Of a stretch of DNA of 64,000 bases, positions 1 through 57,661 are shown piece by piece. The notes beneath the pieces were generated by a model. It was not told the origin of the DNA. It saw only the letters and a list, made by a program, of their open reading frames with translations, and made no database searches. This stretch comes from Nymphaea colorata. Lineage: Eukaryota > Streptophyta > Magnoliopsida > Nymphaeales > Nymphaeaceae. Position 1 is the first letter of the stretch. Each line of letters opens with the position of its first letter. Location of the stretch: positions 2,303,503 through 2,367,502 of the forward strand of contig NC_045143.1 of NCBI RefSeq assembly GCF_008831285.2, read 5' to 3'. Made by a program: the position numbers and the translations under genes.

Positions 1-2809
1 CTTTCATCTTACTGCTATGAAAAGATTATGGTTTTGTTGTTTTGGCTTTGGGTTACCAATTTCAACTGAAACGTCATTTCCATATATACGTAGTGTTAAT
101 CTACCCGATATACATCATCGCATTACAGCTAAAATTTAAGGGAAATGATCAAATAGACTAAGAACTGGTAAAGAAGGACTTAGATCACTAAACTTCCATC
201 AAAAGCAAAGACGTTTGATCAAACGCATCTTTGATTTTGGAACACGTCGTTTTCAGAAAATCAAATCAACGTTGGTCTTCATTGACAAAGCTTAATGCTA
301 AGAATATTTTCATCGTTCGGACTTGTCAATGTGGCTGTTGTTCAAACTAATTGGTCAACAAGAGATCGTCATACACACGCATTTACGTGAACGTTTGGAT
401 TATTAAATCCCACCTACATGATCAACTTCATTTTCCACACACGCAAAAGGAAATTTCACCCACATTACATTTACAATGTGAATCTCTTGTTTTCCTATCT
501 TTCTTTGTCATATTGTAAAACCTCTTGATTAATACTTTGTTTTTTTCACTAGGAAGTCTCCTGATCAACATCATTTTTTTTTACTTCGTTCTAGAGATTA
601 TGGCAGGGTCTGCTTCAGTCCAGATTGAATGAGAATTAGAGTTCCTTTGCCCATTCATTTTTTTTTTCATTATTCCTTTTTTCCTAGATAATCTTAGTTT
701 ATAGCACCTGCTTTGTGCATCGCTAGCAAAGCTCTCATAAAACAAAGAGTGCCTTGTGAAATCATGAGTAAAGGGCTTCGCGCATTCAAAGGAGGTGCGC
801 TTTAACGCTGACACGTTGTTTTATGAGTAAACCCGATTGTGGACTTGCATCGAAATGGAACCAGAGCAAAAGCCCGGCCTTAAATTGTTTCCAGACAATT
901 CAAGGTACTCATGATCTTACAAAATTAAGTAAGGGAGCCTTGCCTAATTCAATCTACCAACAATTAGGGGATTGATCTAACCGAATTTCATTTTCATGAA
1001 TAATTGCTTTAACTCCAACACCAAGGAGGAAGAATCCTGGCAACTGCAAATGACAAACAAGCTTTGGTAGATAGTGATACATGCATCTTAATTAAGTCCA
1101 TATGGCAGAGAATTGATGGCAACGAGGAAAAGGAATCCTGTAAATCGCCAAGACTTAGAAGATTGAGGCAGGACTCAGCCTAGACAGCATGACGTTGGTA
1201 GCCGTTATTTGAATAGCATCTATAGATGGTTTTACAACCATAACTACGGAAAAGTGGCGGCAGATTGTGAACCTGTCCCAACATTTGGGATATTGTGATT
1301 TTGTCAGACTCGGTTCTTATCCATCGAAGGACGATCAAGTGTATGATATCCAAATTCAGGCAATAGAATTTGTGGAACAAAACAGATCTCGTCAATCTCA
1401 AATTTGTATGTATTAAACTGCATACCAATTAAACCCTGTTTGATGTCCTCGAGGTTGTGTTCAATTCACTGTAGATCTGAGCCCCACAGTCCGATCTTAT
1501 GTTACTGCCAAAACACATCTTTTAATGCATCCTTGAATCTATTAAACGCAATCGGAGAGACAACACACCGAACAGGGGTTCGGTAGGTAGCCAGTTTAAT
1601 TTAGAATCCTTGGGTCATCAACTACATGTGTTGTAAAATCAAGTCACCAACATGCAAATTGAAACACGATAATGGGGCACTCCAAAACACCAAAAGGAAC
1701 CGTATACATTAAGGAGACAAAGGGATTGAATGAGGGCTTTGGTCTTCAGTACAGTGGTGGGCTTCCCAGCTTACCCAAAATTAACCCATCTTTGATTATT
1801 ACTGGGACCTATTCATATTTCCAAACTCTTCCTGTTAAGATCCAATTTTAAAGTACAGTAATTTGTTAAACCAACTTATTGACATCCCTAATAATACAAA
1901 AATAAAATCTGAGTTGCTCAATCTAATTTCGATGGAACAACTGATTGCAGCGCTTCGTGGGTAGGTTTTCTACCGTCTAGTTCTCATATTTTACTGATGG
2001 AAATAAAGAGACGACATGCTGACACATGAACGCCCATGCGCACATAGAAAGGGAATGAGAAAAAGGGTGAGTGCTTGTGTTCTAAGCCAAACAGTAGGAT
2101 GAAATACTGTCCTGCTCACACAAACAAAAAATCAGTTCTTCTCTACAATTCAAACAACTATGGCCTGAACGTAGGGCATGCCTAAAATTTTTTCACTCGG
2201 GATCCAAGCAACAAGAATATCAAAATCCAACTGAGATTTGTAATCTCCTCCTTGGACAATTGAAATCAGAAACAGGAAAGCTAGTCTGGTAGGTAACGGA
2301 ACTTGGGCTGAAAATGAAAATGTTGTTACACGAACTTTATCGATTTAACCTTGTGTTTAATGATTGGATCTAGGTGAACTTATGTTCCAATTAAAAATTT
2401 GTTACCTATACATTTGGTGTTTCATTTACTCTGCCCATGCAGCAACCCCAAGATGGAAGCACGTTCGTCACTTCGATATATGACATAAGGTCACACAGAA
2501 TTCATAAAAAACACAGATGATGTAAGTTCTGCGCGTTCTCCGTCGGACGTTCGCATCCATTTTGATGGAACGAAGATGCAGCGTTTCATGGGCAAAGGAA
2601 TGACACACACAACTTCTGTAGTGGTTTACCTATCCACCATATCGTGAGATCGTCTTGCAGCAACCCCAAGTAGATTTTGCATTCATAATATCTATATATC
2701 ACACAAGAAGATGAGATGGCCGGCGTCAATTCACATTGATATTGGGAATCAACAACGGACCGATTATTCTATTATGAAAGAGTTGTGATTGGCGATGCGT
2801 TGCTCTGTT
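1..2809. other. Gene-free spacer downstream of the WRKY gene
   Basis: No convincing gene is seen; the open frames here are short and show no recognisable domain. About 160-545 resembles 8173-8780 and about 555-1010 resembles 5195-5660, so the left part of this stretch belongs to a local, diverged, direct repeat family. The rest shows no structure that I can name. Confidence 0.6.
555..1010. repeat. Diverged direct repeat copy, left of the WRKY gene
   Basis: This is the partner of the block at about 5195-5660, in the same orientation, with many small substitutions and indels. It shares GTTCCTTT, GCTTTGTGCATC, CCAGAGCAAAAGCC and CAACACCAAGGAGG in order. The divergence indicates an old duplication. 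Confidence 0.65.
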
Positions 2810-5800
2810 CTAGCTCTCTATATAGTTCGACAGGTAGAATCCCCCACGGCCGGCATATGGTGCACCGTGAGAGAGGAAAGGAATCTGAGCTGCATCGTTG
2901 ACGCCTACATCACAAACATGTTGTGGTGTGATGTAGTAAATGACGTAGGGGCACTCGTGGTTGTGCGTACCCTCATAAGTGGTGACCACGAATCTTGGGT
3001 CGTCTCTGTCTCTTTCAACCCTTTTCTTCACGCTGCAGCCTCCTCCATGGGAGCACCGATAGTAGTTCCTGCAGAGTTAGCTAGGTTTGATTAGATGTGT
3101 GTGGTCGGCAAACTTCTGTTAACTATTTTCATATGATCAAACTGCCAAAGTATTTCAAACAATATTTTCATAGAGGTAGTAATTTGATGTATGAATGCAT
3201 GCATTTTCTCGTTGCTCAATTAGAAATATAAATATTTTTCTGTAACGAGATCTTCTTTTCTTATGCCAAATCGTAACCTTGGTATATATATTTGAGGGCC
3301 AATGATTCCTTGAAGTTTACTATATATGTCAGCCCTACTCATCTCATCTAGGTGTGTGGAGCCCCTTGTGGGCTTAGTGCAATAGACTTGAATATTATGG
3401 AAGAAAGAAAGCAGTGGAGCTCAACTTGGTTGTCGTTTCAATTTATTTGCCAAATATTGATTATGAAAACGTTAAAAAGTCTAAAATGTTGTTATCTTTG
3501 TAAACGATTTCTAGAATATCCCAACCCCACTTTTTTTTATTTAGTATATATTTGTTGCATGCACATACCTGTGCACACAACTCAATATAGGTGAGAAAAT
3601 GTTTACTGTGCAAGAATTTTCAATTGTTTTAGCAATATCTATCACATCACATGTACTTCGCTTAAGGATAAAGCGCTAGAAAAGCTTGGTTTGGTTTATG
3701 TCACGTATCTTTTACATAAACTTCAGTCTTTAGCAATTTAATGCTGATCATGGTAAATGAACTTTTGACATTTTCGACAATGGTAAATGCCAGTTGCATC
3801 TTTGTTCATGACTTACCACAGGGACCCCCCACCCCAATTCAAAAGTAGAGAGGATAATGAATTCAATTATTTTTCTCAAATCATTTAGCTTCAAGGTTTG
3901 TAGAATAATTCGCCCATCACAACTAAAAGAACCAGTTTTGTTAAGTCGTATGAAGCATATCGTGTCGACAGCACTATATGATATTTTTGCTTTCTGGAAT
4001 GAAACAAGAGAATGGTCGATTGTTACCAACATCCTAGGTGGTCCTTTTATGTTTTTATTAATTTTTTATGATCACTGTCATGATATAGATCACACCTTTT
4101 GGCCTTTATCCTGTCAGTCAGAGAAACCCGTGGTCAGGTTAGCCTAGTGTTGTAGAACATTTTGTCCTTAACCCAAACGATGTCTGGTAGTCTAGTTCAT
4201 GGTTAACCTAGTGTGAACATCTTGTCCTTAACCCAAACGATGTCTGGTAGTCTAGTTCATGGTTAACCTAGTGTTCACCAAGAGAGAGAGAGAGAGAGAG
4301 AGAACAAGATAGTATACAAAGACCAAGCTCGTGAACCGCAATGAGGAATCATTTTGAAACTGAAATATAATTTATGACAAGCTAAATAGGTTCCAAAGTC
4401 TGCCTTGTAGGTAGGTTTCTCCATTTCTTTTAGTTACATACTTTTCCCTCTCCATTGCTGATTTTAAGCGCTTTATGGCTGTATACCTAAATCATATATA
4501 GTTTTGGCAAACAAAAAAAAGGGAAAAACCATTTAGATAGCATCCATATGTTGTGACAAACCTAGATATATATGATTTCCATATCCAATATTAATTCCTT
4601 TCACAAACTAATACCCTTTAGTATATATGTGCCAAAGGAAGAGAACTGATCATCGTGATAATGATGAAGATGAAGAGATAGTGCAAACTTATTACCTAGG
4701 GTTTTGGTTGTCCTTAACCATCTTCTTCCCGTACTTCCTCCATCTGTAGCCGTCGTCCAAGACTTCAACATCCGACATTGTCTTAAAAGCGACCTTAAGG
4801 CCAAGTCCATCTGATTTTCTTTTCCTGGAGCCACGCCCACCCGTCTGTTTACTGAAAAACAAACACCCCACCTCGTCATTATCTGAAGTAATTGGTCATT
4901 AGCTATTACACGAAGGTCTCTTCTACTGAACAAGCCCGGTGGATGACTTGAAGTTTAATTTTTTACATTATTGCCTAGTACTTTTTTTCAGTTCTTTGTT
5001 TTGCAGGCAATTCTATCAGATTTAGAGTTGGAACTGACGCAATTAAGTTTTTGTTCCCAAAAATATTTAAGCCAAAGAAGATCATTTAAACCTTTTTACT
5101 TATTCAAACGCATATATAGTTGTCTGTATCATTTCTATTATATATAACAGCATGCCATCTTTGGGCAATGTCATCAATATTAGTTACAATTTTTTTTTTT
5201 TACTTCATTCTAGGCAATATTGCAGGGTTTACCTCAGTCCAGACTGAACGAGACTTAGAGTTCCTTTTCCCGTTCATTTTTATTATTATTATTGCTTGTT
5301 TTCCAATATAATCTTAGTTTCTAGCACATGCTTTGTGCATCAGGAGCAAATCTCTCATCAAAGCAAAATGAATAATTTGTAGTATAATCATGAGCAAAGC
5401 CCTTGCATATATATCAGAAAAAATTGCGGTTTGACACGGACACATTACTTTATGAGTGAACCCAACTGTGGAGTTGCATCAAAATGGTACCAGAGCAAAA
5501 GCCTAGCTTGCCTTGACTTGTTTCTGGACAATTTCAAGGGCCTCGTGATCTCATAAAATTGAGCAAGGACCCTTTCTGAATTTGATCTACCAACAATTAG
5601 AGGGTTGTTGATCTAATCGAATTTCACTTCATGAATAACATTAACTCCAACACCAAGGAGGGAGAATCCATAGAAATACCACTTATATGACTTCTCAGGA
5701 AACACGTCAAATTGAAAGCTAAAGTTGTTGCCTAGCAGTAAACCGGCATTGGGACAACATACTATATATCGGCCTGACCCATATACTAGGCCACATAGGT

Positions 5801-6715
5801 GCAGGTACCCGTAAAAATTTAAGTGCAGCGGTGCGCCAAGAATATTTATTTGTTATTATTAATTTATTATAATATATATGTATATAAGAATTAAGAAATT
5901 TAGATCATGCACTATAGTCTATACACTCTACACTAGATAAATTATATGTTAATATTATATATTACATAATTATAAGTTATAATATATTGTGTATATGAAT
6001 GTAACATATTAAACGTTAACATGCTTATTAAACAAGTAGACAAAAAACAACAAAACCAGGAGAGAACACAAAAATGGAAGAAAAATGCTAAACAAGAAAT
6101 AGCAGTCTTTGCACCAAAACAGAAAACTGAGAAAGTGAAAAAACTAACAGTCAAATATGGACATTTACAAATAGAAGCATCAGTGCTATGAGTCGTTAGT
6201 TGAATCGCTTGCACAATAAAATGAATACTAACTCAAGAGTGCAATGAGGAACCGTGAATGGCTGAATCAAGCCAAAAATAGATAGAAAAAAAGTAGTTTT
6301 GTCAGAAATAGGGTTGAAAAAGATGCAAACGATAAGTCAGGTGCAGCAGTCACTTTGAAGCATCCATGTGACTTAGCCCATATATTGAAGGATCTCTATC
6401 AGGCATGTCTTGGATGAGGTGATCAGTTGGCGTTCCACTACCAGAGCCACCACTGGCACCATGTGAGGTGTTTAACAATGTTAAATCCGTCCTACTCACT
6501 TACTTTGCTTGAGAATCGCCGATCTTGTTTGGCTGGCTTGAATCCAAGGCCGGAAACTGTAGGTTCCCGTCAATTTCCCTGCCTTCAAACAACTCACCGT
6601 CGATTAGTGGGTCGCTGAAGTCGAGGATGTCAGGCAGCTGGAAGGAGGAGCCATTGTCTGCAGCCGGAAAATTTTCCGGTAGGTACGCCGGCAATTCTGT
6701 GCAGAACTTCATCAT
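2810..6715 (-). CDS. WRKY transcription factor, group IIc, WRKY50/51-like
   Basis: Three exons: 6715-6504, 4851-4696, 3068-2810 (627 nt with stop, 208 aa). The ATG is the first of two adjacent ATGs. Donors read GTAAGT and GTAAT; acceptors are TTTTTCAG and TCTGCAG. The second intron splits the Arg codon after NP, the conserved R-type intron position of WRKY domains. Exon 2 encodes a basic RKRK stretch (residues 80-83, likely nuclear signal) and the heptapeptide WRKYGKK (108-114) instead of WRKYGQK. Exon 3 encodes the zinc finger C128, C134, H158, H160 followed by about 48 variable residues. In the family, WRKYGKK marks the WRKY50/51/59 clade, linked to salicylate/jasmonate defence crosstalk and to altered DNA preference (WK box rather than W box in tobacco NtWRKY12). 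The first Cys pair is spaced X5, one residue longer than I expect for group IIc. The acidic N-terminal region (1-70) looks like an activation domain, which is an inference. The family call is firm; orthology is less so. Confidence 0.93.
4137..4275. repeat. Two-copy tandem repeat of about 60 bp
   Basis: Copy 1 (4137-4200) and copy 2 (4201-4260) share a perfectly conserved 3' part starting at TTGTCCTTAACCC. A partial third start lies at 4261-4275. Copy 1 has 4 extra bases near its start. The repeat lies in WRKY intron 2, immediately before a GA microsatellite (4281-4303). Confidence 0.85.
5060..5660. repeat. Diverged direct repeat copy inside WRKY intron 1
   Basis: Sequence at about 5195-5660 parallels about 555-1010: TTTTACTTC, TGCAGGGT-like and GAGTTCCTTT-type blocks, then CACATGCTTTGTGCATC, GAACC-AACTGTGGA and CTACCAACAATTAG in the same order. 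Its left part (5063-5170) also parallels 9206-9298. It therefore looks like one member of a small local repeat family now lying inside the first WRKY intron. No coding capacity is evident. Confidence 0.65.
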
Positions 6716-13493: not shown

Positions 13494-14800
13494 AGGAGTC
13501 GAAAGGATCTAGGGTTTTGGACCTATGAGTTTGGTTGCAAGCTAAGAATAGTTAAGATGGTTTTCGGCATTTGATCATGATCAAATACAGCTTTTGGGTT
13601 CACGTGTGTATGTCATATGAAAAAGATGAGTTTAGCCTTGAAAAAAGGTTAACAACTCATGGCCATGAAAAGAGGCCCAAAAGCTTCTTTATTCACCCGC
13701 TGGGTGCGTCTTGGGCTGTGCCGGGGCCTGAGTGAGGTATGATGCACCCATCAACTTAATGAAAGAAAATTATCACAAATGAAATGTGACAACTGGCCGC
13801 CTCTGAATGCAAGGCGACGTGATTGCGATCCAAACTTTCATTCCTATAGAAATCTGAATCCAGACTTCGCACTAGATATGCTAGTAAGATCGAGGCTGTG
13901 CAAAGGATGTATGTTCATGAATTCAACCAAGAGTTCAATTCGGTGATGGTATCTGGTTCTGAAGTTCTCTCTCTGAACCCACTGTCCTCATGCAATGCTT
14001 TTTCTGGAAGTCACAAATTCAATGCTGTGAGACATTATCATTTCCCATAAGATCAAAGCTGGGTATGCTCTCCATTGGGTGTCTGCCAATGTACACTCTT
14101 GATTGGCAACCTTTTTAAAGAAACTTTTTGTTGGGGAGACACCTTTTGGCCATAATCCCCAGAACAGATATGACTTTTTTAATTATTTTAGGTTGTCAGT
14201 CAGATAAAAGCCGACCTTTATTGTTGCCCCTAGCTCTAAAAGCTAAAATATCAGTTATCACAGTGCTTTCGTTTTGTGTCTGCAAAGTGGAGAACTTTTT
14301 CAAATTCAAAAGAAATTCTTAAAAGCATAAATTTTCAATGGTTCCAACAAGATCTGAGATTTAATTTGATGCCTCCCAAGTCGACAGCTTTTAGCAAAAG
14401 GGAGATGATATAGGGAAAATGAAACTTGTGAGCTTCACTCGCATTTTGGCTAAGGGTGGCCAAGACAGGAACGACTACTTGATACCTAAATGTCCTACTC
14501 GATAAGCAATTAAAGGAAAATAACGAACAGTTTAGCCAAATATCTCCCAAGAAAAGATACAAATGAATTAGGGGCACATCCAATTTTACATCAAAAGCAT
14601 CAAACAAAGAATTGTCGGCACTGGGATAAACATGTAGCTCCGCCTTTGGCTTCAACATGAAAGCTCAAAAGCTGCACTAGTTTGAGGCGTAGTGTAGATA
14701 ATGGAACAAAGAAAAATACAATAACACTAAATTCAAGACACTGATCGTTGTCAACTCAGATCAGAAACATGATGATACATGGAACCCAACCAGAGGCAAC
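13494..14800. other. Spacer and probable 3' UTR of the RABG2 gene
   Basis: No gene is recognised. The part closest to 14801 must contain the 3' UTR of the minus-strand RABG2 gene, whose end cannot be set from sequence. Confidence 0.4.
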
Positions 14801-16138
14801 TCAACATGCACAGCCTCCACTTTGCGGCTCTGCTTCAGAAACTGCCCTTGGCACACTCTGAAAGTAACTGCAGAAAAAAATAACCAAGGATCAGAACCAC
14901 AGCGACCGATATATAACATATAAAAAAAAATGATAAAAAACGGGAAGCTAATGCAGCAATGGAACAACAAAAGGCAGCAAGTTAGTACGAGCATTTCTTT
15001 ACCCAGCTCCATCAAAATGAAAATCTTCAATTAGGTCATGCCAGTCAGCCCAAAACAAGTTCTTGGTTAAATCATCCAAACATGAAAAGAAAAGAAAATT
15101 CACATACTTGTAATTTTATGATGATATATGACTCATAAAACAGAGTTTGAGGCAGCTCTTTAAGCCTCACAGATTATGAGATAGGAGACGAGTGTTTCCA
15201 TGTAGTATGTGACGTGAATTTTAATTTTTATGTCATATGATTAGATCTCAGCTATGCAAAATGATGTACAATATAGACAGAATTAGGAAGAGGCTTGTTT
15301 CAGTCATTCCGACAGAAACCAACAAGAGCTACCTGTAGGTTACACTAAACCAGTGATAATTCTCAGATTGCTATACAAAAATATTATAAAGCCGCACATA
15401 AGCAAACCTTCAAGATCAAGTAACAAAGTTTTACAATTCACAACGAAGTTGCAAACTTGACACATGAAAATATAAGCGTTACACATCATAAATGTGACAC
15501 ACCTCTTCATGCAGGGATGGATAAAGTTCAACTCATTTACAAACAGAAAAGCAAAAGTGTCCTGAATGAAGCTACAATTATAAAAGTACACTACTCTATA
15601 TTGAAAGGAGAGCAGTGAACACGAATTCAATACTGCATGACCTTACTGATGCTAAATGGGCTCAAAAAACCATAATAGTTTGTGATCATCCATGTTTGCA
15701 TTTAATTGTCAAAAACAAGACCTGGTAATTGAGTCGTAATTGCACAATGAAGCTTGAAACATAGTTCAAAATCTTCCAAGATAATGAATCTATCATTTTT
15801 AATGTTATTCTGAAAACAAAATTCCGAAGAAAACAAGGACATAAAATTGATTATACGCATTTGTAAGCTGACCAAAGAAAATGATAGGTTACATTTGAAA
15901 ATCACCCTATCAATATTTCAAATATCATTATTGCAGGTTGACCATGCTTCATTTGTTAACTAAAGTTAATTTTAGCATAAAAGGGCAAAGCCAAGTGAAA
16001 ATTTACCAAGTCCAAAATGGGGTCCAGAAAAAGAGGGATGTGCTTTACAGGGAACAGGATGGCACAGGGAGGAAAAGAAAAAGCAAACAAACTGCCAGAA
16101 CCAACGAAAAGGAAAAGCCATAGGTGCAAAACCAACAC

Positions 16139-16183
<45 letters not shown>

Positions 16184-18800
16184 GTTTGTGCCAAGAAACC
16201 GCATTTACCACCTCGTTTGTTTGACCTGCAGCAATTATCAAATTCAAAAACTTGAGCAAACAAAGGCTGCAGAGGAACATTAATCTCCACCTGAGAACAC
16301 CTAACCTAAGAAAGAAACAGAGATTTCAGGATTTCACTAGAAAAAGGATCACAAACAGTTCTATGTCATGCTCCAGTGCCATGATATTTCTTCAGATTTT
16401 GAAGAAAGATGAAAATCTGTGTGCCTTCTAATTGACAAGAAAAATGCATGGTCCAAGAAAGCTCCAACATGAAAATGAAAAAGCACGTGCAACGCCACAA
16501 TCAGAATCCATTAGTGTGGAAACAATCACTAACATGTCTTGCGCACGATCACTGGCAAGTGCATTTTTCGCTATGCAGAAGAATGCATCATCAATATTGA
16601 TGTCCTCTTTTGCAGATGTTTCAAAATAGGGTATATTCCCCTTTGCGGCACACCAGTCCTTGGCTTTTCTTTCAGATACCTAAAGATTTTCACATTTGAA
16701 TTAGACAAGTATATCAAATAGAAGGGCAATAAAGAATAATGTCCAAGTACTCACCACTCTGCTGTTCCCCCCATCTATGTCAACTTTATTCCCAAGTAGT
16801 ATAAATGGGAATGTCTGGGGATCCGTGGGGCTTGCCTGCAACATATTCAAATTCATCAACAACACAATCACCTGCCACTGCCAGGTCCAAACCTAATCCC
16901 ATGGAGATGATAAATCCTTCTAAGGGAACAAAACTGTTCTGCTAGGCATTAAAAAATCAGACAATTTCACCAATGAAGTACCCCAAGTTCTGCCGCTAAC
17001 GCACAAAGAAGCATTTTAGCTACTACATCAAAGGTCTATTGCTTGTTAAACAAAAAGATTATTCCCGTTTCATGTCCTCTTCTCTCTTGTCACTTCAAAC
17101 AAATAAGCTTAAATCTATTTTGATCATTCACCCAGTAATAAGATGAACTTCTCCTTTTTTAGCAGAAAATGAAATAAAAGCTACCTGATTAAGAAATTCT
17201 GTGTGCCAATTGTCAAGATTGTCAAATGACTTCAACACATTCACATCATAAACAAGAACGCAGCAATCTGCCCCTCTATAAAATGCAACTCCAAGACTTT
17301 GAAATCGCTCCTGCCCAGCTGTATCCCATATCTGCCACAAATGTAGAATATTTCAAGTCAAGAATCAAGAATAAAGGTTTTATAAGACTAGTTTTTGAAG
17401 TTCAAGCGAATCCAGATAAGTGGGACAACTTTGTACTTTAGAGTATACTGCCCCGACAGAGGAATATAATATGCCAGCTTACCTACTTTCTGGAAGAAAA
17501 AAAACCAATCACCTATTAATAAGCACCCGAGAAAGATACAAAATTCACTCACTTGAAGGGTTACAAGCCTATCCTCAACCTGAAGTTCCTTTGTGACAAA
17601 ATCTGCTCCGATGGTTGCTTTGTATTGGTTGCTGAATTTCTTGTGCACATATATGTTGATCAGTTAAGGAGTTACTACCATCTACCGTTCAGATAAATAA
17701 GACAATAGGCAGCTCAAGATGTGCATTGAGATTCAATGAGTAATAAATGAACAAGACAAAGCTGGATATCTAATCCCGTTAAAATAATAACCAATTTTGA
17801 GATCATAGAACCATTTGAACGTGATCAGTTACTTGTGTGCGCGACAGATCACAAGTTTGTCGACACAAAGAATTAGCATAGACAGTGGCCTAAAAGCGGT
17901 TCAAATCGAGCTCATGAAAGCAGTAGCCGACATAAATAAGTGAAGATGCAAATAAAAAATATAATCTCAAATCATATAATAACGATTAGTTGCGCAAACT
18001 TTTCAAACGCTTCAAGAAGGAGCTCCATTCACTAAGCTCGCTAATTATCTGAGACCAGAGAAATTAAATCTGAAACCAGCTTCGAATTATGCCACGACTA
18101 GTATGAGTACACCAAACTGAATATCTCGAGTGAACCAAAAATAAATTCGACTCAAGTTGGTCTAGTCGCTCTTTTATGCCGATCTACTCTGTAAATCACC
18201 ATTTCACTCACTACATATCGACACTAACAACCCATTTGTCTCACTAAAAGTTTGAACCTACAGTTTCCTTCATATTTTGACCGGGAGCACCAAAACTAAA
18301 CATAATATCGGGAAGAATGTTGATGTCAATCTGTATTTGGTTGTTTACTTCAATATTTCAATTAGAAAAACATGTAATAGCAACATCAAGAACCGAGTAG
18401 AGAAACATCGTCAGAGCAATCAAAACTCGCACTTGAGATCCCAACCGTCAAACAACGAAACAACAATTCACAAAAATAAGACGGAAGACCAATTCACTAT
18501 TGAATCTTCGACGAAAATAAAAGGCGACCCAGAAATTCATCTGTTCCCAAACCAGAGAACGAACAACAAGGGAGATCCAGAAGAACCAGCCACCAAAAGG
18601 ATACTGATTCATCAACGAAGTCTTTCCCACCCTGAAAACCAAAAACACAACGGAGGTCCATGAGTTGTATAGCCCGACATCAACAACCCCATAAAATAAC
18701 CAACACACACACACAGAGGGGGGGGAGAGAGAGAGAAAAAGATTTACCCGCTATCACCGAGGACGATGACCTTGAGGAGAGTTCTTCTGCGCATTGACAT
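14801..18800 (-). CDS. Rab7 small GTPase, RABG2-like
   Basis: Seven exons: 18800-18748, 18631-18605, 17652-17553, 17331-17185, 16835-16755, 16679-16534, 14867-14801 (621 nt, 206 aa, the usual Rab7 length). GTPase motifs are intact: P-loop GDSGVGKT (15-22), WDTAGQE with catalytic Q67, NKVD (125-128), ETSAK (156-160). The C-terminus ends Cys-Ala-Cys, a double geranylgeranylation signal. Rab7 proteins act on late endosomes and the vacuole in membrane fusion. The tail DIYFQSVP...GGCAC matches the Arabidopsis RABG2 tail as I remember it, rather than the longer RABG3 tail. All joins keep frame. Exon 2 to exon 3 does so only through a U12-type intron with GT-AT ends (see separate entry); the other introns are GT-AG. 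The last intron (14868-16533) is the longest and holds a CT microsatellite. Confidence 0.93.
16142..16181. repeat. (CT)n microsatellite in RABG2 intron 6
   Basis: Uninterrupted CT repeat of 40 bp inside the last RABG2 intron. Confidence 0.95.
17653..18604 (-). other. U12-type intron with GT-AT termini in the RABG2 gene
   Basis: The 5' splice site after ...ATGAATCA reads GTATCCTTT, an exact U12-type donor. Near the other end TCCTTAAC, a consensus U12 branch site, is followed 10-11 nt later by ...AACAT|ATATGTGCAC. Joining CA to ATATGTG gives Gln-Tyr-Val, restoring the conserved MNQYV-KKF Rab7 segment in frame. Neither a nearby AC (GT-AC) nor the next AG (GT-AG, at CACAAG) preserves the frame. 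Length is 952 nt. The exact boundary is inferred from frame and family alignment, not from transcripts. Confidence 0.8.
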
Positions 18801-21800
18801 CTTGGTGTCAATGCAGAAGAAGATGAAGAGGAGGAGGCAGAAGAAGGAACTCGAATCACGCTGGTGATGAGAGAAGACAACAATGAGGAGGTGTAAACGG
18901 GTTGGATTCGGGTCACCAATAATACATAGCAAATTCATTTTAGATCGGGTCTAGTACAACTCTAAATCCTCAAAACCATATCCGATCCATTTTTTGTTAA
19001 CGTAAACCCCTTCGAACGGTATACCATGACCGAACACGAGAGAGAGAGACCAAGCTTTTGGGCGAACATGAGAAACATTTCTTCTATTGGTTATATGTTG
19101 GTAGTAATTTGTTATAGCAACTAATATGCATCAATATTGATAACATTAGTATAAATAGATACAAAACTTCATAAAATGTAAAAACTAAGAAAGACATTAT
19201 TTTTCATGTCTGACTCTAAATCCAATTATATGAGTTGATAAAAATAAAATTAGACCTTTTAATCTTAAACTTTTATAGAATCTATTTTGTAACACAAGCA
19301 TTTGATTTTAATCTTAAACTCCTATAGAATCTATTTTGTATCTAAAAAAACAGCATTTGGCACTCGTCAGTGGTATATTTTAATGCAGGCCTTGTTAAAA
19401 AAGGATTTGGAGGGGGATGCATTGTAAGAATAATGACAAAAATACCGTTTATGTTATTTTTAGCACTAAATTTTAGAATTTTGGTCATTCAACAACTATT
19501 GGCACACGACAGCATATAAAAGGTTTTTCAGAGCTCGTTTAACCAAATCCTTTTATGTTCTCTTGGATTATAGCCGAATCTAAACATTTACCAAATTTGA
19601 AACATAATCAGATCCCTTCTAATTGGATTTCGATTTAGACATGGATTGAAATCCTAACTTTTTAACACCAAACTCAGTTCCAACTAACATAAGATCGGAC
19701 GTTTCTTTGCAATTGTGCTCAATGTTTGTCGGATCAAGGTTCAATATCAGATTCAACCGTAACAAATTATAATCCAATTATTGATAAATTTTTTGTAATA
19801 CAATATCTAAGTGGATTCAAAATCGGATCTTCATTTATGCATGGATCCCTGAATTCAACTGAAAGACCAAGTGGCTTGTTCACGTGGTACAGGTAAAAAA
19901 GGAAAAGATCGTGCAAATTCAGAAGCCGCTCATCTTCACATGCACCGAGAAAGCACTGTGCATTATCAACCCCACCAGTTCACGAGTTCCGGCGACCACG
20001 TGGAGAAAAAGGAAACACAGACAAAGGTGATTTATGGAAGAGATAAAAGGTCATGTGGTTGGAGCGATCATGAATTCAAGAAAAGAATGAAAACCAATCA
20101 TGCATCTTTCTATAATTGAAAAATATTGTCCCTCATCCAAGAAAAATTAGATCACACACTGTGCTGTAAATATAGTTGCCTGAACTTAAAGCTAAAATCA
20201 GGTTTTCACAAAGTGAATAAACCCCTCGCAACGGCTTAGGCGGCAAACCGCTTGTGCCAAACTTCTTCTGGTTTAAATTTTTTGAGATCATTAACATGCA
20301 AGTTGAAGCATGACGGAGGCACCTTGGCCTAACTTTTCGCTTTTGCCAACCAAACCTTACCTGCAAGTAGCATAGGGTACCGATCAGCAGCTCTTGAAAA
20401 TGATGTGTCCAACGTCCAGGCATTGAAAGCAAACCCTGTAAACTAGTCAGGCAAGCGTTTAGCAGGGGCTCGATTTTCATAAAACATAACTTTCCACTTT
20501 TGCCAACCAAACCTGACATGCAAGGAGCTTGAAGTCCAAGGTCTATTACATGTGATATGTGGACATCAATCAATTAGAATTGGTAGGTACCAAGAAACTG
20601 GCTTCTGGAAATCTTCTCACGAGCTTTCATGTTGTGCTTAGCTTAAGGTTGCTTCTTAGACGCCCAAGAGAGGGGTTGAGCATAATTTGTGGGACCAGAC
20701 TAAAAGGCCAACCTTTTGCTGTGGTTAAGGGTGGAGCCAGAAGTTTTGTGTTGCATGGGTCAAACTATAGTTTCAAAATTTTGACAGGGACAGAAATAAA
20801 TATTTTTAAAATTTTTTATATATATTAAATTAAAAAATTTTAGATTTACATATAAATTTTTAAAGTTTTTAAAATCTGAGGGCGGGCCAAAACCCCTGCC
20901 CGTGCCTCCTTCCCTCTGCCCCATCCTAATGGGGTCCAACTCTTGCCTCATAACCTTGGGAATAGGGAGAAGAAATTGGATCTTTGACTTTTGGTTTGCT
21001 TTTGAAGGGGTTAAGCCCCCAAACTAGGGTTACCAATTTTTTTTGTAGCATTTGGATGCCTCAAAACTAGATTCGAAGAAAACCTAATTTTGATGAAACT
21101 CGGTTTTGTAAAATAGAGTGAAAAACTTGGTTTGCTCATGTTATTAGAAAAACATGTTTTGGCCTTTGGGTGCATAAATTAGACAGACAAGGTTTAAAAG
21201 CCTTGGTTTTTATAGAACTATGTTTGGGTTGGATGAGGGTGTCCTCTCAACTTATTTGTGCAATGAATGGCATTATAACACATGCATATAATATACTATA
21301 GAGTTTATATGTGTGTGTATGTGTGCTTAGTATTTATGAGGATTCAAAAATGTCACATGCAAAAAGAGCTAAAAGTTGAAAATTCATTGTCGAAAGCACA
21401 ATATCGATTGCCTAAAGCACCATAACTAATTGTTGCATTATAAACTATTTGGTAACATTTTCTTAGCAATCGATTCTTAAATTTTAACTATCCAGCAACA
21501 TCAGTATGTTATATTTGATTATTCAAATTCAATGGAAACCAACACATCTAATGGCGTCATATAGGCAAAATGTGGACCCATTGATAATATATATATTTTT
21601 TTCTGAACAGTATCAGCCTATTGAAAACATGAGCGTAGATAAATGTATTTTTGAAAAGGAGATCAGTTTCGCAAAAAATATCGATGGTCGGTTGGGTTTA
21701 GTTGGCCGTTGCTTTCTGTGTGACCTGTTGATGGGCCCTCCTGTATTTATGTCGGTTAAGAAAGGGACTAGCCGTTGACGTAATTCAGTTTAAAAAGAGA

Positions 21801-28203: not shown

Positions 28204-28968
28204 AGTAAAATTGACATTTGTGACTGACAGTCGAACTTAACATATCTTATAATTTTTGGGTCTAAGCATTTTCTGGCCATTATTGTATCAAAAGCTGCAG
28301 GAAAGTCTATTATCGTCCTGCATAAACTGTAGTTACATCAAGAAGGTATCAATCACACAGTTTGATGAAAGAAAATCCAGATCATGAATGGATTTGTTGA
28401 AGATTAAAATGTAATCTGCTCATAAGTTTCTTTCTTTTGCAGAGAAAAGGAGGCTGAAACCAAGAAATTTGTAGAAGCAGCTGAGGAATGCATGGAGATT
28501 TGCAAGTCATTTGGTGTGCCTCTGTTAATTAATGACCGGATAGATGTAGCCCTTGCTTGTGATGCTGATGGAGTGCATGTTGGGCAGTCAGATATGAGTG
28601 TCCCCATGTCTCGCAAGCTACTTGGCCCTGGAAAGATCATTGGTGTCTCCTGCAAGACTCCTGAGCAAGCCCGAAAAGCTTGGTTGGATGGTGCTGACTA
28701 TATTGGCTGTGGTGGCATGTTCCCTACAAATACAAAGCAGAACAACCCTACGATTGGGTTGGCTGGATTGAAAGCAGTCTGTGAGAGCTCACCGTTACCT
28801 GTTGTGGCTATTGGTGGCATTGGCATCAAGAATGCCCATTTGGTCATGGAATCTGGCTTCCCAAATTTAAGCGGTGTAGCTGTTGTCTCAGCACTGTTTG
28901 ATCGAGAATCTATTTCTGAGGAGACTCGTAGGCTGAAGTCTGTGATCTCAAAAGTGGTATCAAACTGA
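24404..28968 (+). CDS. TH1: TH1: HMP-P kinase / thiamin-phosphate synthase
   Basis: Nine exons: 24404-24622, 24704-24778, 24950-25025, 25101-25176, 25471-25605, 26149-26213, 26368-26495, 27581-27834, 28443-28968 (1554 nt, 517 aa; Arabidopsis TH1 is about 520 aa). The N-terminal ThiD-like domain has [15 protein letters not shown] near residue 35, PVMVSTSG and the anion-hole motif [11 protein letters not shown]. It phosphorylates hydroxymethylpyrimidine phosphate. The C-terminal ThiE-like domain has [35 protein letters not shown] and VAIGGIG. It couples HMP-PP to HET-P to give thiamin phosphate, in plastids in plants. All exon joins keep frame; the exon 6 donor is GATG|GTAGGG, which restores DGVHSVEL in place of the Arabidopsis DGKEFHEL. 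Start at 24404 is the first in-frame ATG, but the frame stays open upstream to the acceptor at 24304 (33 codons rich in Ser, His, Arg), so a longer transit-peptide form is possible. Confidence 0.95.
28161..28202. repeat. (TA)n microsatellite in TH1 intron 8
   Basis: About 40 bp of TA repeats inside the last TH1 intron. Confidence 0.95.
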
Positions 28969-31885: not shown

Positions 31886-48305
<16,420 letters not shown>

Positions 48306-50629
48306 GATTGAGCAACCTCAGCACTGATTGGCTTTCCTTTCCTGATCGCAGTGCAAGAAGCAGCAGCGTTTCTACCAGTGATGGTCTCTGCGTCCTTCAG
48401 TCGATAACGTTTTGAAGTGCCAGTGCGGCCTCTTTGTATTCCTCAGGATTTCGTTTCATTTTTCTTGATCAAATGGGTTCTATGAGATGGCGCCGTTACT
48501 GCTTAGCTGGTGGCCGTGCAAGCTGGGGCTTGGTTTGTTAGTTTTTATACAAACGATTGTCTCATAAATTTTAGTCCTTTGTCTCTTTGCTAATTCAATT
48601 ATTCTACCAATTATTTTTCCATATCAAGATGTAAATTGCTGAACATCATGTCACAATTCTCAATGGTGGATCCTGGCAAACCGTCTTCTGAGTCGCCGTC
48701 TTGGAAAGTCGACACTCTCGGTGAATGATTTTGCAAACAGTTATTCACGGCATATCTGTTTAGGTACCAAGTTGAGATTAATCTCCGTTGGAATTTCTTT
48801 TGATGAAAAATTGAAATGAAAATCAGATCAAATAGAAAAAGATCAAGCAAAAATAAGTTCTTCATTTTTATGTGCATTTTTATAAGCCAATGCAGGTGAT
48901 ATCGATGAGACAGCATAAGATCCCCCAGCATTCCTTTCTCTTGAAAACCTTTGTACGGACAATATGGACGAGCTCATTGGGGTTTGATGTCTACAATGCA
49001 CCTAAGTGTCCTCGTAAGCAACTTGATTCAGATGAGCCAAGGCTGTCAATAGGCTAAGGCGGGACCAAGTCACATGCCTAATGAAAGATAATGTGAGATG
49101 TAAACAGATGTAGAAGGTGGTACTGGAGGTTTCTAATGAGTCATCAAACTTGTTCGGCAAGAAAATTCAGATCCACTTGTATGTTCCAAAAACTAGACAT
49201 AGGGAATGAACACCATTTATAAATGACTGAAAAAAAACGGGTTTGCCCTAAAATCCTACTATTTGGAGTTAGTTCATGTGAGACTGTATGACATATTTAG
49301 GAGTGACAATCACACACTTGGCAATGTTTACTTGTGGCAATTTTAAAAAAAATAAAAAGGCTCATGCCTACCAAGAAAGAAGGCATGTTTTTATCAGACA
49401 GCCATTTGAACCCCCTTTTTTGTTTCTTTGAATAGTTCCCAAATAAATTAATCACCTGTAAGCATCACCACTGAACACAGTGCTCCTTGAAACACAGTAT
49501 TCCGTGAATGTGTTTCAAAAAATGGACAAGTTCATGGACTCTGTGTGTCCCAGGGAACACAGCATTCCCGTTACCAAATGCCCTCTAATGTGTACGGGTT
49601 TTCCTTTCTACCAGAACATAAATCACTTCCATCAATTTACCATAGTGACCACTAATTCCAAATCACGAGTCAGAATGCCCAAAATTTCCTCAAAACAATT
49701 TTTCCTCCTAATATCTACGCCCATATTCCCCCTTAGCTTATGCTAATACTGTTAATGCATATTTAAAGCTTTTTCATTATCCTTTCATAAATTTATGTTG
49801 AAATTAGGTTCATCCTCAACAAAGCTAATTGCTAAACATTAGGCATTGTTTTCAGCTGTTCCTATTGTTAATGGAGACATTCGCCTTCCCTTGAGGGAAG
49901 TTCCAGAATGTCTGAATTATTTTCAGACATGGACTAAAATCAGACGAAAATTCAATTGCAGCGTCTCAATTAGTTACTTACTCAAAGTAGCTTGCAATTT
50001 CTACTAGCAGCAGGGGATCTCGAGTTTAATGTGATAGGAAGCCTCGTGAATCAAACCAGTTAAATGACCGACGACCTCCACCATGGACAGCACCATGAGA
50101 AAGCTTAATAGTTGCGAGAACAGAAGTATGATTTAGATTCAAGGTCTTCACCTTATGAGAATCTGCACTGGTAGTAGAAGTTAATGAGCTGAACACAAGT
50201 TGACTTGATAAGATTACAGCGACGAACCCAAACTGGTGATGATTCTAGCTGGGCTCCTATAAGCTTATTAACCAAGTGAGCTATTAACCAGCTGCCCGTC
50301 GAATGCATGCCTTTTCCAGACATTTTTTAATCTACTCTCTTTTAAATGTTATAGGGCTAATTGACCCTTGTAAAATCAACCATATAAATCATACTTTTAC
50401 AGTTAAAATTTGGTCCGTGTTGCCACTGCGTCATTTTGAGGAGCTTCGGCTTAGAAAAACATTTGGATATAGCGTGAACTGGGTCCGTGGTGAACCCGTT
50501 ACACGCTCTCCTTTGGAGCTCGCGAATTCCAGAATTGATTTTCTGTCCTCCGTCGCGCCATGAGTTTCTGCTGGTTAAACCCTTCTGCTACAATTGTCTC
50601 TTGGGTTTAAGAGCCTGGAAGTTCATGGT
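48306..50629. other. Spacer between SEC31 and SG1-like gene
   Basis: The first few hundred bases hold the SEC31 3' UTR (an AATTTTAG / CAATTATTC AT-rich area near 48565-48605). No gene is recognised beyond it; the promoter of the TPR gene must lie towards 50629. Confidence 0.5.
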
Positions 50630-53600
50630 ATGGCAGCCCACTCTCTCTGTGCAACTCAAATCCCTTCTTCCCAGCTGCTTTCTCCCCACAGAGTCTCTCT
50701 CCTTTCCCAAATCAGAATTTCCAAACCGAACTCCCTCAATATCCCTATTTTCATCTCCCGCTTTCCTCCTTGTCTTCTTCTCCGTAAGCCCATTTCCACC
50801 AATGTCAAAGCCTTCGCGTCAAATCCCAGAAACCCAAGTGGATCTTCCTTTCTGAAGGAATGTACGAGAAGTATTGGATTTTTTGCAGTGGGGTTGCTTA
50901 TTTCTATGGGCAGTTTCAATAATCCTGCACTGGCTGATGTGAAGGGCAGTGGTACTCCTCCATCGCTGGAGGAAAAGTTGGGTGCCCAAGGTGAAAAGGC
51001 TGTTGACGCTGATGCTTCTCCATCTTTGGAGGGAAAAGTGGAAACACAAGATGAAAAAGTTGATGAAGACTTGTATATGAGGTTGTTGGAGAGGAACCCA
51101 AGAGACGTGGAGGCACTTAAGGTGGTTTTGTATGGAAGGATGAGAGCTGGGAAGACGAAGGAGGCAATCAAGTATGTGGAGAGGCTGATAGAGGTCCAGC
51201 CCGATGAAGTCGAGTGGAAGCTGATACAGGCGCTATCTTACGAGTTGTTAGGTCAGCTGAGCAAGGCGAAGAGGTTATTTAAGAAGATATTGGAGGAAAG
51301 GCCTCTTAATCTCAGAGCATTACATGTATGACATCTCTCATCCCTCTTTTATTATTATAATTTCTTTTTTCCATACGTGAAGGCTGAAGCGCTTCATGGA
51401 TTGTTTAAGTATAGCAGTATTGGTTTATAGTTAAACACTTAAAAGTTATTCGTGAATCGCCCGAGGTTTCTTTGTTACATTTGGTATTTTTGTGTTTGAG
51501 TTATTGTGGTGATTGTTATCTTTATAGGGTGTTATGTTGATATTGTTGTTATGGCTGCTTTATTATTGTTCTTGCCTGATTTTTTGCTACTTCTTTGATT
51601 GGCAATCTGGGCTTCTTGTTTGTCGTTATTACTTTTGATATTTCATTGTTGTATTTTAGGACACGGCATTTATTCAATTAATTCGATCTGTTGGTAGAAA
51701 TGTTCCTTGAAGGCTTGGGAAATTACCAACTTTCAGAACATCGAGTTTTCATGTCCTTTGGTTCTTGTAAGCGAGAGCATTTTACTTAGCCCTGTCACTG
51801 TGACGGCAAACTCCTAAAGAATTCTAATGCGCAGGGACCAAAACTCTGACCGGTGAAAGAGTGCGTGTATACGCTAGAATTGGGTTGTTATTACCTCTGG
51901 CTGGCATATCTAGCGTGCTGCATGTTGGCTCAAGATTGACAGTTTGATGTTCGGCAAATACTGCTTTAATGTTTATCGGTATCTAAGGATTCCTATACAA
52001 TACCACGTGGAGCACTTGAGGTTAATTTGTAGGGTACAGTCAGCTACTCTAGGTGAAGTGGTCAAAATGCTCATTTGTCCAGCCAGAGAGACTTCCGTAT
52101 GCCGTTGTGGCCTGTTCTTTGTCTTTTCATGGTCAAAGCGGGTAATTTGAACCAGATTTTTCATGGTCAAGCTAGTACTTTAAATTTTTAACCAGGAAAG
52201 AACATTTGAGACTCTTTTGGAAGCATATTAACAAATCTTGTGCATCTAACAAGAGATGAGAAGGTGCACAAGTTCTTTACTGGTACTCAGTTCCTTCAGG
52301 TGGAGTAGTGAAAACATGGATATGTTAAAAAGAAATTCTGAGAGAAATGCCATTGGCAATTTATGTTGTGTTCCACAAGCCAATTTCCTGTTTGCATGTT
52401 ATCATTGCAGTTCTGACAGTAGTGCCAATTGAAGGAGAAGGACATGGTTCTAAGCTATTGATACCGATCCTTCTAGAGTTGGTACAGCAAGCAAGGAATC
52501 AATGGCCTCTACTAGTGAGATCAAGTAGTATCTTTTCCTATGAAACAGGTCTGGGATTATTCTGCTTTTGCCCACAACAATCAGCTGTCAATGGAGGCGT
52601 TTATGGCTGCAACATTCTGGTATTAGAGTTGAACAAGGAATTTTTAGAGTTGATGTGCTGATATTACCCCCTTATGCTATCTTTGGAATCCAGAGGTTAC
52701 GGATCTTTTACCCTTAAGATCAAGCATAATGTCTGTGATGCTACACAAAAAAAAAAAAAAAAATTGATTACTCTATAAGCATGCATGTTAGAAGTTCCTT
52801 TTGCTGGGATAGATAACCCAGACATGCAGATTGCAGGAAAATTGCAAATTTTTTGGATAAATATTCATCTATTATGGGGAAAAATAAATTCATTTGCATC
52901 ATTAACTAGAGAGTGGCCTATAAACAAACGGTGTCAAGTGTGGGTAGATAATTTGAGTCCTGCTCAGAGATCTTCTGACTTTGGAGATGATTTTCCTTTC
53001 ATCAGTATTTCATAAACTTAAGGTTGTTTTGACCTTCATCGACACAATATTTACAGAATTTAACATTATTGTTAGTGTGTTTGCCTCCATCTTAAATTCT
53101 GAAAAAGAGTTAACTTTATCCTTTTTAGGGGCTTGCACTGGTGATGCACAAGCGCAATGAAGGTCCAGCTGCTTTTGAAATGCTTAATGATGCCCTGGAT
53201 CTTGCTCAGCAAGAAGCCAGGGTAACTGAGGAGCGCAACATTAAAATATTGATTGCACAAATGCATGTGGTAAAGGTAATGTATCTAGCCTACCACGATG
53301 TAACTGATTTGGTTGAGTTAGCTTGGTTGTTGAACCTTGGCCGAGAGGGCCATAATCATTGTCTTGTTGCTGCATCATGTTTGTAGGGTGAACTTGAAGA
53401 AGGACTAAGAGAATTTGAAGATTTGGTTAAAGAGGATCCTCGAGATTTCCGGCCATATCTATGTCAGGTGCTCTTCACTTCAACTATTTCATAATTGCTG
53501 TGTAGGATTGTGGGTTTACTAAGCCACATTTTTTGCATGCTGGCTTGTATCTTGAGCTATTTGTTTCTTCTATTCTGTACAAATGGTGGTGAAGCAAACA

Positions 53601-56358: not shown

Positions 56359-57661
56359 TTTTGACAATGTTGTCAATCTATAACAAGCACTTCAAGAAAG
56401 CAAAATTGTATCTGAAAATTAATATTCTTCTATTATTTGGCTAATATGGGTTTTCTATGATTGGTTGGACATTGTTCATTCACCGCTAGAGATGGCTTAG
56501 AACTAGTACTAATGGTTCGCTATCCAATGGATCTTTTTGTTGCAAGACTCTGTTCGAGAGTTATGATCATTTACCAAATCTGTTCCCATCTGATAAAGAA
56601 ATGATATTAAATGAAATGAGAAAGAGTTTGGCGCAGCTGGCCCATTCATCATATCTTGTCAACACGTTTTCATGAAAGTAGATTCAACAGAGTCAGCTTG
56701 AATTGTTTTCTATCGTTTGCCACCATGCTATTACAATCTCATATTCTACTTTTTCTTGTTTATGAGATGAAGGGAGAACAATGTCAAAATCGAGAACTGA
56801 ATTGAATTTGAACTGATGATGTATGAGCAAAAATGTTATTGCTTAAAACAAATTAAAAAATTAATATAAAAATAAAAATAAGAAACCTGTAAGCAGATTT
56901 AATTCGATTGAGATCGGTTGATTCAAACATATCTTTTCAACATTGTCATACGAAGCCTGTTCTAAGCAGACGTGCAGTCATGCCATGCACAATATTAGAC
57001 GTCACATGCATCTTCTTCTACCGCTGAGTTAGGTTGTCAAAGGGTTGAGTTTCAGTTGGAAAGGTGGCCCTGCCTGCGACCACTCACGTATAAATATAGA
57101 AAATTTCACCCAAAACCCTTTTCGGGTCCATCTGAATTCAACCTGTGATTTCAGATTTTTAGCGTAAATTTCTCTCGAAGTTATTATTATGAGTTTTTTA
57201 ATATGGTGTTAGGCAAATCTCTCTATCAGTTGATGCATAGAGATGCCCTAGGTATTGAACTAGAAACTTCTTCAATTTGAAAGTCTTAACCAAAATCCAA
57301 ATTGCATGAAAACCAGCTGGTTTTTTTTACTGAACTGAGAACCTCTTCGTCCTCAATTTTAAAAATATGTTCTCAAATCACCCACTCAAGTTATACTTAG
57401 AATGGTGATGGATGTAATGATGGATCTGCTAGATATAAAAAATTTAAATATTTGTTTCTAGGGAATTGGCGATATTGTGAAAGAAGATCGTCATGGACAA
57501 AGCGCATTTTATTTTCTTTGTTGAATTGACCAAAACCATATATTCCTTGGCCCGTCTGTGGTAGATCTGTGTTGGCATGAACATGCCCACTTGTCAGCCT
57601 TCTCATATCAATCAACGATGGGTGGAAGAATGTGAGAAGATCAGAGAAGCCCTTCTTCACC

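Follow-up and report, generated by a model that had tools for sequence, protein, structure and literature searches.

The second intron of a Rab7 gene of Nymphaea colorata is very probably a U12-dependent intron that begins with GT, ends with AT and is used in this form in RNA. Its position, phase and donor are common to the second introns of two other Rab7 genes of the same genome, and its last base is T. On this reading, which draws on genomic sequence, the RNA would be spliced at base 17653. The gene lies in a 64,000-nt stretch of DNA (the window; G000:C6:2303503-2367502), for which a first-pass annotation had proposed a U12-type intron with GT-AT termini in a RABG2 gene. The intron coordinates given there proved exact, both splicing signals were recovered where that annotation had placed them, and the GT-AT termini hold on the sequence, with both paralogs placing the junction at the same nucleotide and having AG in place of AT.

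Results

An intact Rab7 gene hosts the intron

The minus strand of the window from 14801 to 18800 contains an intact seven-exon Rab7 GTPase gene of 206 aa, with an exon model built from protein homology (Table 1). The protein matches Pfam Ras (7.7e-55), and its best PDB match is a Rab7 (2.9e-86). The open reading frame is uninterrupted across all 206 residues and includes the P-loop, DTAGQ, NKVD and ETSAK motifs and a C-terminal CAC, within a GGCAC end. Thus the gene has the Rab7-like sequence, the GTPase motifs and the C-terminal cysteines of the RABG family. Assignment to RABG2 rather than RABG3 is plausible from its differences from two RABG3-like paralogs and from the GGCAC end, set against Arabidopsis sequences. 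Introns 1, 3, 4, 5 and 6 are GT-AG.

Table 1. Features of the window Rab7 gene, in window coordinates
Feature	Positions	Strand	Basis
Exon 1, start codon to GDSG, 53 nt	18748..18800	-	Gene model; equal length in both paralogs
Intron 1, GT-AG, 116 nt	18632..18747	-	Gene model
Exon 2, 27 nt, P-loop end to MNQ	18605..18631	-	Gene model; 27 nt in both paralogs
Intron 2, predicted U12-type, phase 2, 952 nt, GT-AT termini	17653..18604	-	Signals, gene model, paralogs
U12 5' splice site GTATCCTTT, 9/9	18596..18604	-	Pattern search, consensus score
U12 branch site TCCTTAAC; branch A 17664, 11 nt to intron end	17663..17670	-	Pattern search, score
3' terminal dinucleotide AT; homologous place is AG in both paralogs	17653..17654	-	Paralog comparison
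Exon 3, 100 nt, starts ATATGTG	17553..17652	-	Gene model, paralogs
Exon 4, 147 nt, WDTAGQ	17185..17331	-	Gene model, paralogs
Exon 5, 81 nt, NKVD	16755..16835	-	Gene model, paralogs
Exon 6, 146 nt, ETSAK	16534..16679	-	Gene model, paralogs
Exon 7, closing with GGCAC (two cysteines at the C terminus) and the stop codon	14801..14867	-	Gene model

Elsewhere the window has a plant NLR-type resistance gene, whose 981-aa open reading frame at 57632-60577 (+) carries leucine-rich repeats and NB-ARC (Pfam 2.2e-49); a frame of the thiamine monophosphate synthase family at 28492-28968 (+; Pfam TMP-TENI, 1.6e-49); and one with weak tetratricopeptide repeat matches at 50594-51331 (+). Outside the genome, relatives of the Rab7 protein were found at one locus in viral contigs (33% identity) and at 25 loci in archaeal and bacterial MAG contigs (up to 44% identity); neither set held a plant Rab7 or anything bearing on the intron. 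The sequence ATGAAYCARTATCCTTT was found in 52 stretches of viral contigs, none with 'GK' in the preceding six codons, and these were taken as chance.

Intron 2 carries the signals of a minor intron

Intron 2 is inserted after CDS base 80. It begins with GTATCCTTT, which agrees at all nine positions with the U12 5' splice site [AG]TATCCTT(T), and it ends with CAACAT. The branch site CTCCTTAAC agrees with TTCCTTRAY at 8 of 9 positions, and the distance from branch A to the intron end, put at 10-11 nt by the first-pass annotation, is 11 nt, the branch A being the second A in TTAAC. Judged by eye, the last 30 nt, GATGGTAGTAACTCCTTAACTGATCAACAT, are without a distinct polypyrimidine tract. The intron thus combines a U12-type donor, a branch site near the 3' end and the lack of such a tract.

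The weight of these signals comes from their placement at exon edges that are fixed by protein homology, not from their frequency. A single GTATCCTTT occurs in the window against 0.65 expected, and since 50 of 100 shuffles give at least one, the donor alone is not significant. The branch-site pattern TCCTTAAC occurs six times against 2.28 expected, a count reached by 4 of 100 shuffles. At the homology-fixed edges, a first-order Markov model of the window gives a chance of ~1.7e-8 for both signals together, with [AG]TATCCTTT as the donor and TCCTTRAY allowed in 13 places, 8-20 nt before the intron end.

A second perfect donor of the window, ATATCCTTT at 42227 (+), falls by eye within the apparent intron of a different gene and was regarded as a chance match. 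The exons of that gene, at ~41520-42480 (+), resemble by eye those of a SEC31-type COPII coat gene; the open reading frame at 41360-42082 has no Pfam match. An Rfam search of window 14500-19200 gave no match. In the whole genome, U6atac gave five matches over the cut-off; U4atac gave none, and its control also gave none, so that this search is uninformative.

The U12 donor points to the GT-AT register

The junction scan took donors between the interior of exon 2 and 120 nt past its end, and acceptors from 80 nt before exon 3 to 70 nt into it. Among the 3681 junctions in frame without a stop, five restore the conserved segment MNQYVHKKF exactly, in the registers GT-AT, TA-TA, AT-AT, TC-TA and CC-AT; neither GT-AG nor AT-AC is among them. 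GT-AT (18604/17653) is the sole restoring register that starts at the U12 donor. Use of one of the other four, which yield the same residues, is highly improbable: in all four the intron would start away from the U12 donor, and the paralogs put the junction before ATATGTG. As read from the sequence, codon 27 is CAA in the GT-AT register and CAG in the other four.

With the U12 donor in use, there is no AG within 23 nt of branch A. The nearest two are at 24 nt (17640), which shifts the frame, and at 32 nt (17632), which keeps it at the cost of seven residues. This opens the alternative that splicing runs from the U12 donor, or from a cryptic GT close to it, to an AG inside exon 3, giving a shortened or frameshifted product from a gene that is perhaps decaying. 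Junction 17632 would produce MN-H-NQYKAT in a protein of 199 aa, and the scanned range contains 25 in-frame, stop-free GT-AG pairs, although none of the 25 restores MNQYVHKKF. Both AGs are past the 11-13 nt optimum for the branch-to-end distance given in PMC3584512, which also describes GT-AC and AT-AG as disfavoured. In addition, the in-frame product would lose seven residues before switch I, and the reading frame and motifs of the gene are intact. We therefore regard splicing into exon 3 as improbable.

Returning to the GT-AT junction, five other ends located 5-20 nt past branch A are in frame with an altered protein (17659 AT, 17656 AA, 17650 TA, 17647 GT and 17644 CA). In a mutational study of terminal dinucleotides, a 5' G reportedly spliced to a 3' G or U, and to A or C barely if at all. 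On this account, 17653 (AT) would be favoured over 17655 (AC) and 17656 (AA).

Two paralogs place the same junction after AG

We searched the window's own assembly (407,766,735 bases, 783 contigs). The pattern ATGAAYCARTATCCTT had five matches in the genome against one for the reversed control. Three of the five are in Rab7 genes, namely the window gene and the genes at C6:5407078 (L087) and C1:30133994 (L088); the remaining two, L091 and L092, lie outside any Rab context. L087 carries its Rab7 gene at ~2280-6220 (+) and L088 on the reverse strand, and both genes are RABG3-like. Their exon models, built from protein homology and GT-AG edges, are each complete at 206 aa. The lengths of exons 1-6 (53/27/100/147/81/146) and the phases are identical in the three genes.

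Both paralogs have a U12 donor at the position of the window gene's. Their intron 2 borders read CA/GTATCCTTT...TTATTAG/ATATGTG and CA/GTATCCTTA...CTTCAG/ATACGTT, and that of the window gene reads CA/GTATCCTTT...CAACAT/ATATGTG. In the paralog introns the closing AG immediately precedes ATATGTG or ATACGTT, so the junction predicted in the window gene is the homologous one, and its last intron base alone separates intron 2 from GT-AG. Across the three models, 17 of 18 introns are GT-AG, the exception being the window's intron 2. The three second introns score 9, 9 and 8 of 9 for the U12 donor, compared with 2-7 of 9 for the 15 other introns.

Thus the paralog introns resemble the window's in position, phase 2, the donor GTATCCTT and the flanking 27-nt and 100-nt exons, but differ from it in their AG end, in their length (188 and 205 nt versus 952) and in a weaker branch site. 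Their branch-site matches, 7/9 and 6/9 and in each case 14 nt before the end, do not exceed the 6-7/9 that the 15 control introns reach at best, so that the U12 status of the paralogs rests on the donor and the common position; the 8/9 of the window intron is above all 15. The second introns of L087 and L088 may be drifting from U12 toward U2 splicing.

The main rival explanation is that intron 2 is an ordinary GT-AG intron and that its terminal T arose as an error of sequencing or assembly, or represents a rare allele. The AT differs by a single base from the AG found in both paralogs. Moreover, a DNA search of the assembly with window 17560-17900 returned only the window's own place, so the stretch is single-copy and the T at 17653 has no second copy as a check. 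On the other side, nothing in the gene's seven exons and its five remaining introns suggests an error, and substitution errors are uncommon after Pilon polishing. Such polishing was applied to the assembly of PMC7015852, which may be the one used here. We consider an error or rare allele unlikely and retain the GT-AT reading, under which an AG would have changed to AT in the lineage of the window gene; a change in the reverse direction is also possible.

A partial duplicate of the window gene is located in L089 (G000:C9:10266500-10276400) at ~3813-4869. It retains a piece of intron 2 at 84% identity and a piece of exon 4 and intron 4 at 86% over 214 nt, and is probably a pseudogene fragment. 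The region around exon 3 is not alignable, so this copy is silent on the 3' end of intron 2. Of the 82 places matched in the protein search of the genome, we chose by identity the C9 fragment and two Rab7 loci in addition to the window gene; a more divergent Rab7 copy that lacks the U12 donor could have escaped this choice.

Discussion

The minor spliceosome recognises its donor through U11 and then U6atac, recognises the branch site through U12, and sets the 3' end at a short distance. In intron 2 of the window gene, the donor would be bound by U11 and subsequently by U6atac, and the branch site by U12. The 3' end would then be set by its 11-nt distance from a near-perfect branch site, with the result that AT is used and codon 27 is built from CA and A.

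We also considered a stronger form of this reading, in which the RABG2 lineage has long kept a functional AT end, a near-perfect branch site compensates for it, and splicing is slow or conditional relative to the AG-ended paralogs. We think this doubtful. Were it so, the genes would form a natural paired test of how far the minor spliceosome tolerates a G as first base with a T as last.

The window intron is a clean and checkable candidate for a plant GT-AT minor intron, and its genome also has two paralogs with an AG end. It belongs to a Rab7 family that in N. colorata has a common U12-donor intron next to a 27-nt exon. A gene finder restricted to GT-AG could drop residues between the P-loop and switch I of this Rab7.

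The first-pass annotation called GT-AT U12 introns very rare, which fits the articles examined, where such introns are already on record. GU-AU is among the rare minor-intron termini (PMC8199999), and in four plants 'other' termini make up 0-3.8% of U12 introns (PMC7367187). Among orthologous plant minor introns, ~4% have non-canonical termini, almost 75% of them AT-AA, and 'GT-AT' is absent from the main text (PMC10639083). In our search of the literature on RABG2/RABG3 U12 introns and plant GT-AT splice sites, we found no description of the window's intron 2.

Three known systems bear comparison. A similar alternative splice accompanies every one of the 14 GT-AT introns annotated in Drosophila, and unstranded data usually miscall GT-AT junctions as AT-AC on the other strand (PMC4528330); the window intron, in contrast, has no such near AG. 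The GT-AT subtype counted among human G-type minor introns (PMC8280824) is like the window intron in its U12 type, its first base G and its last base T, and differs in that the latter is in a plant Rab7 with termini read from genomic DNA. In Arabidopsis, 30 of 165 U12-intron genes were followed by RT-PCR in a U11/U12-31K knock-down, and the RabG2 transcript, from the same gene family as the window Rab7, is named (PMC3422263); its U12 intron would be the counterpart of the window's intron 2. We conclude that the window's intron 2 is a further case of the known, rare GT-AT U12 subtype, in a family already known for a U12 intron.
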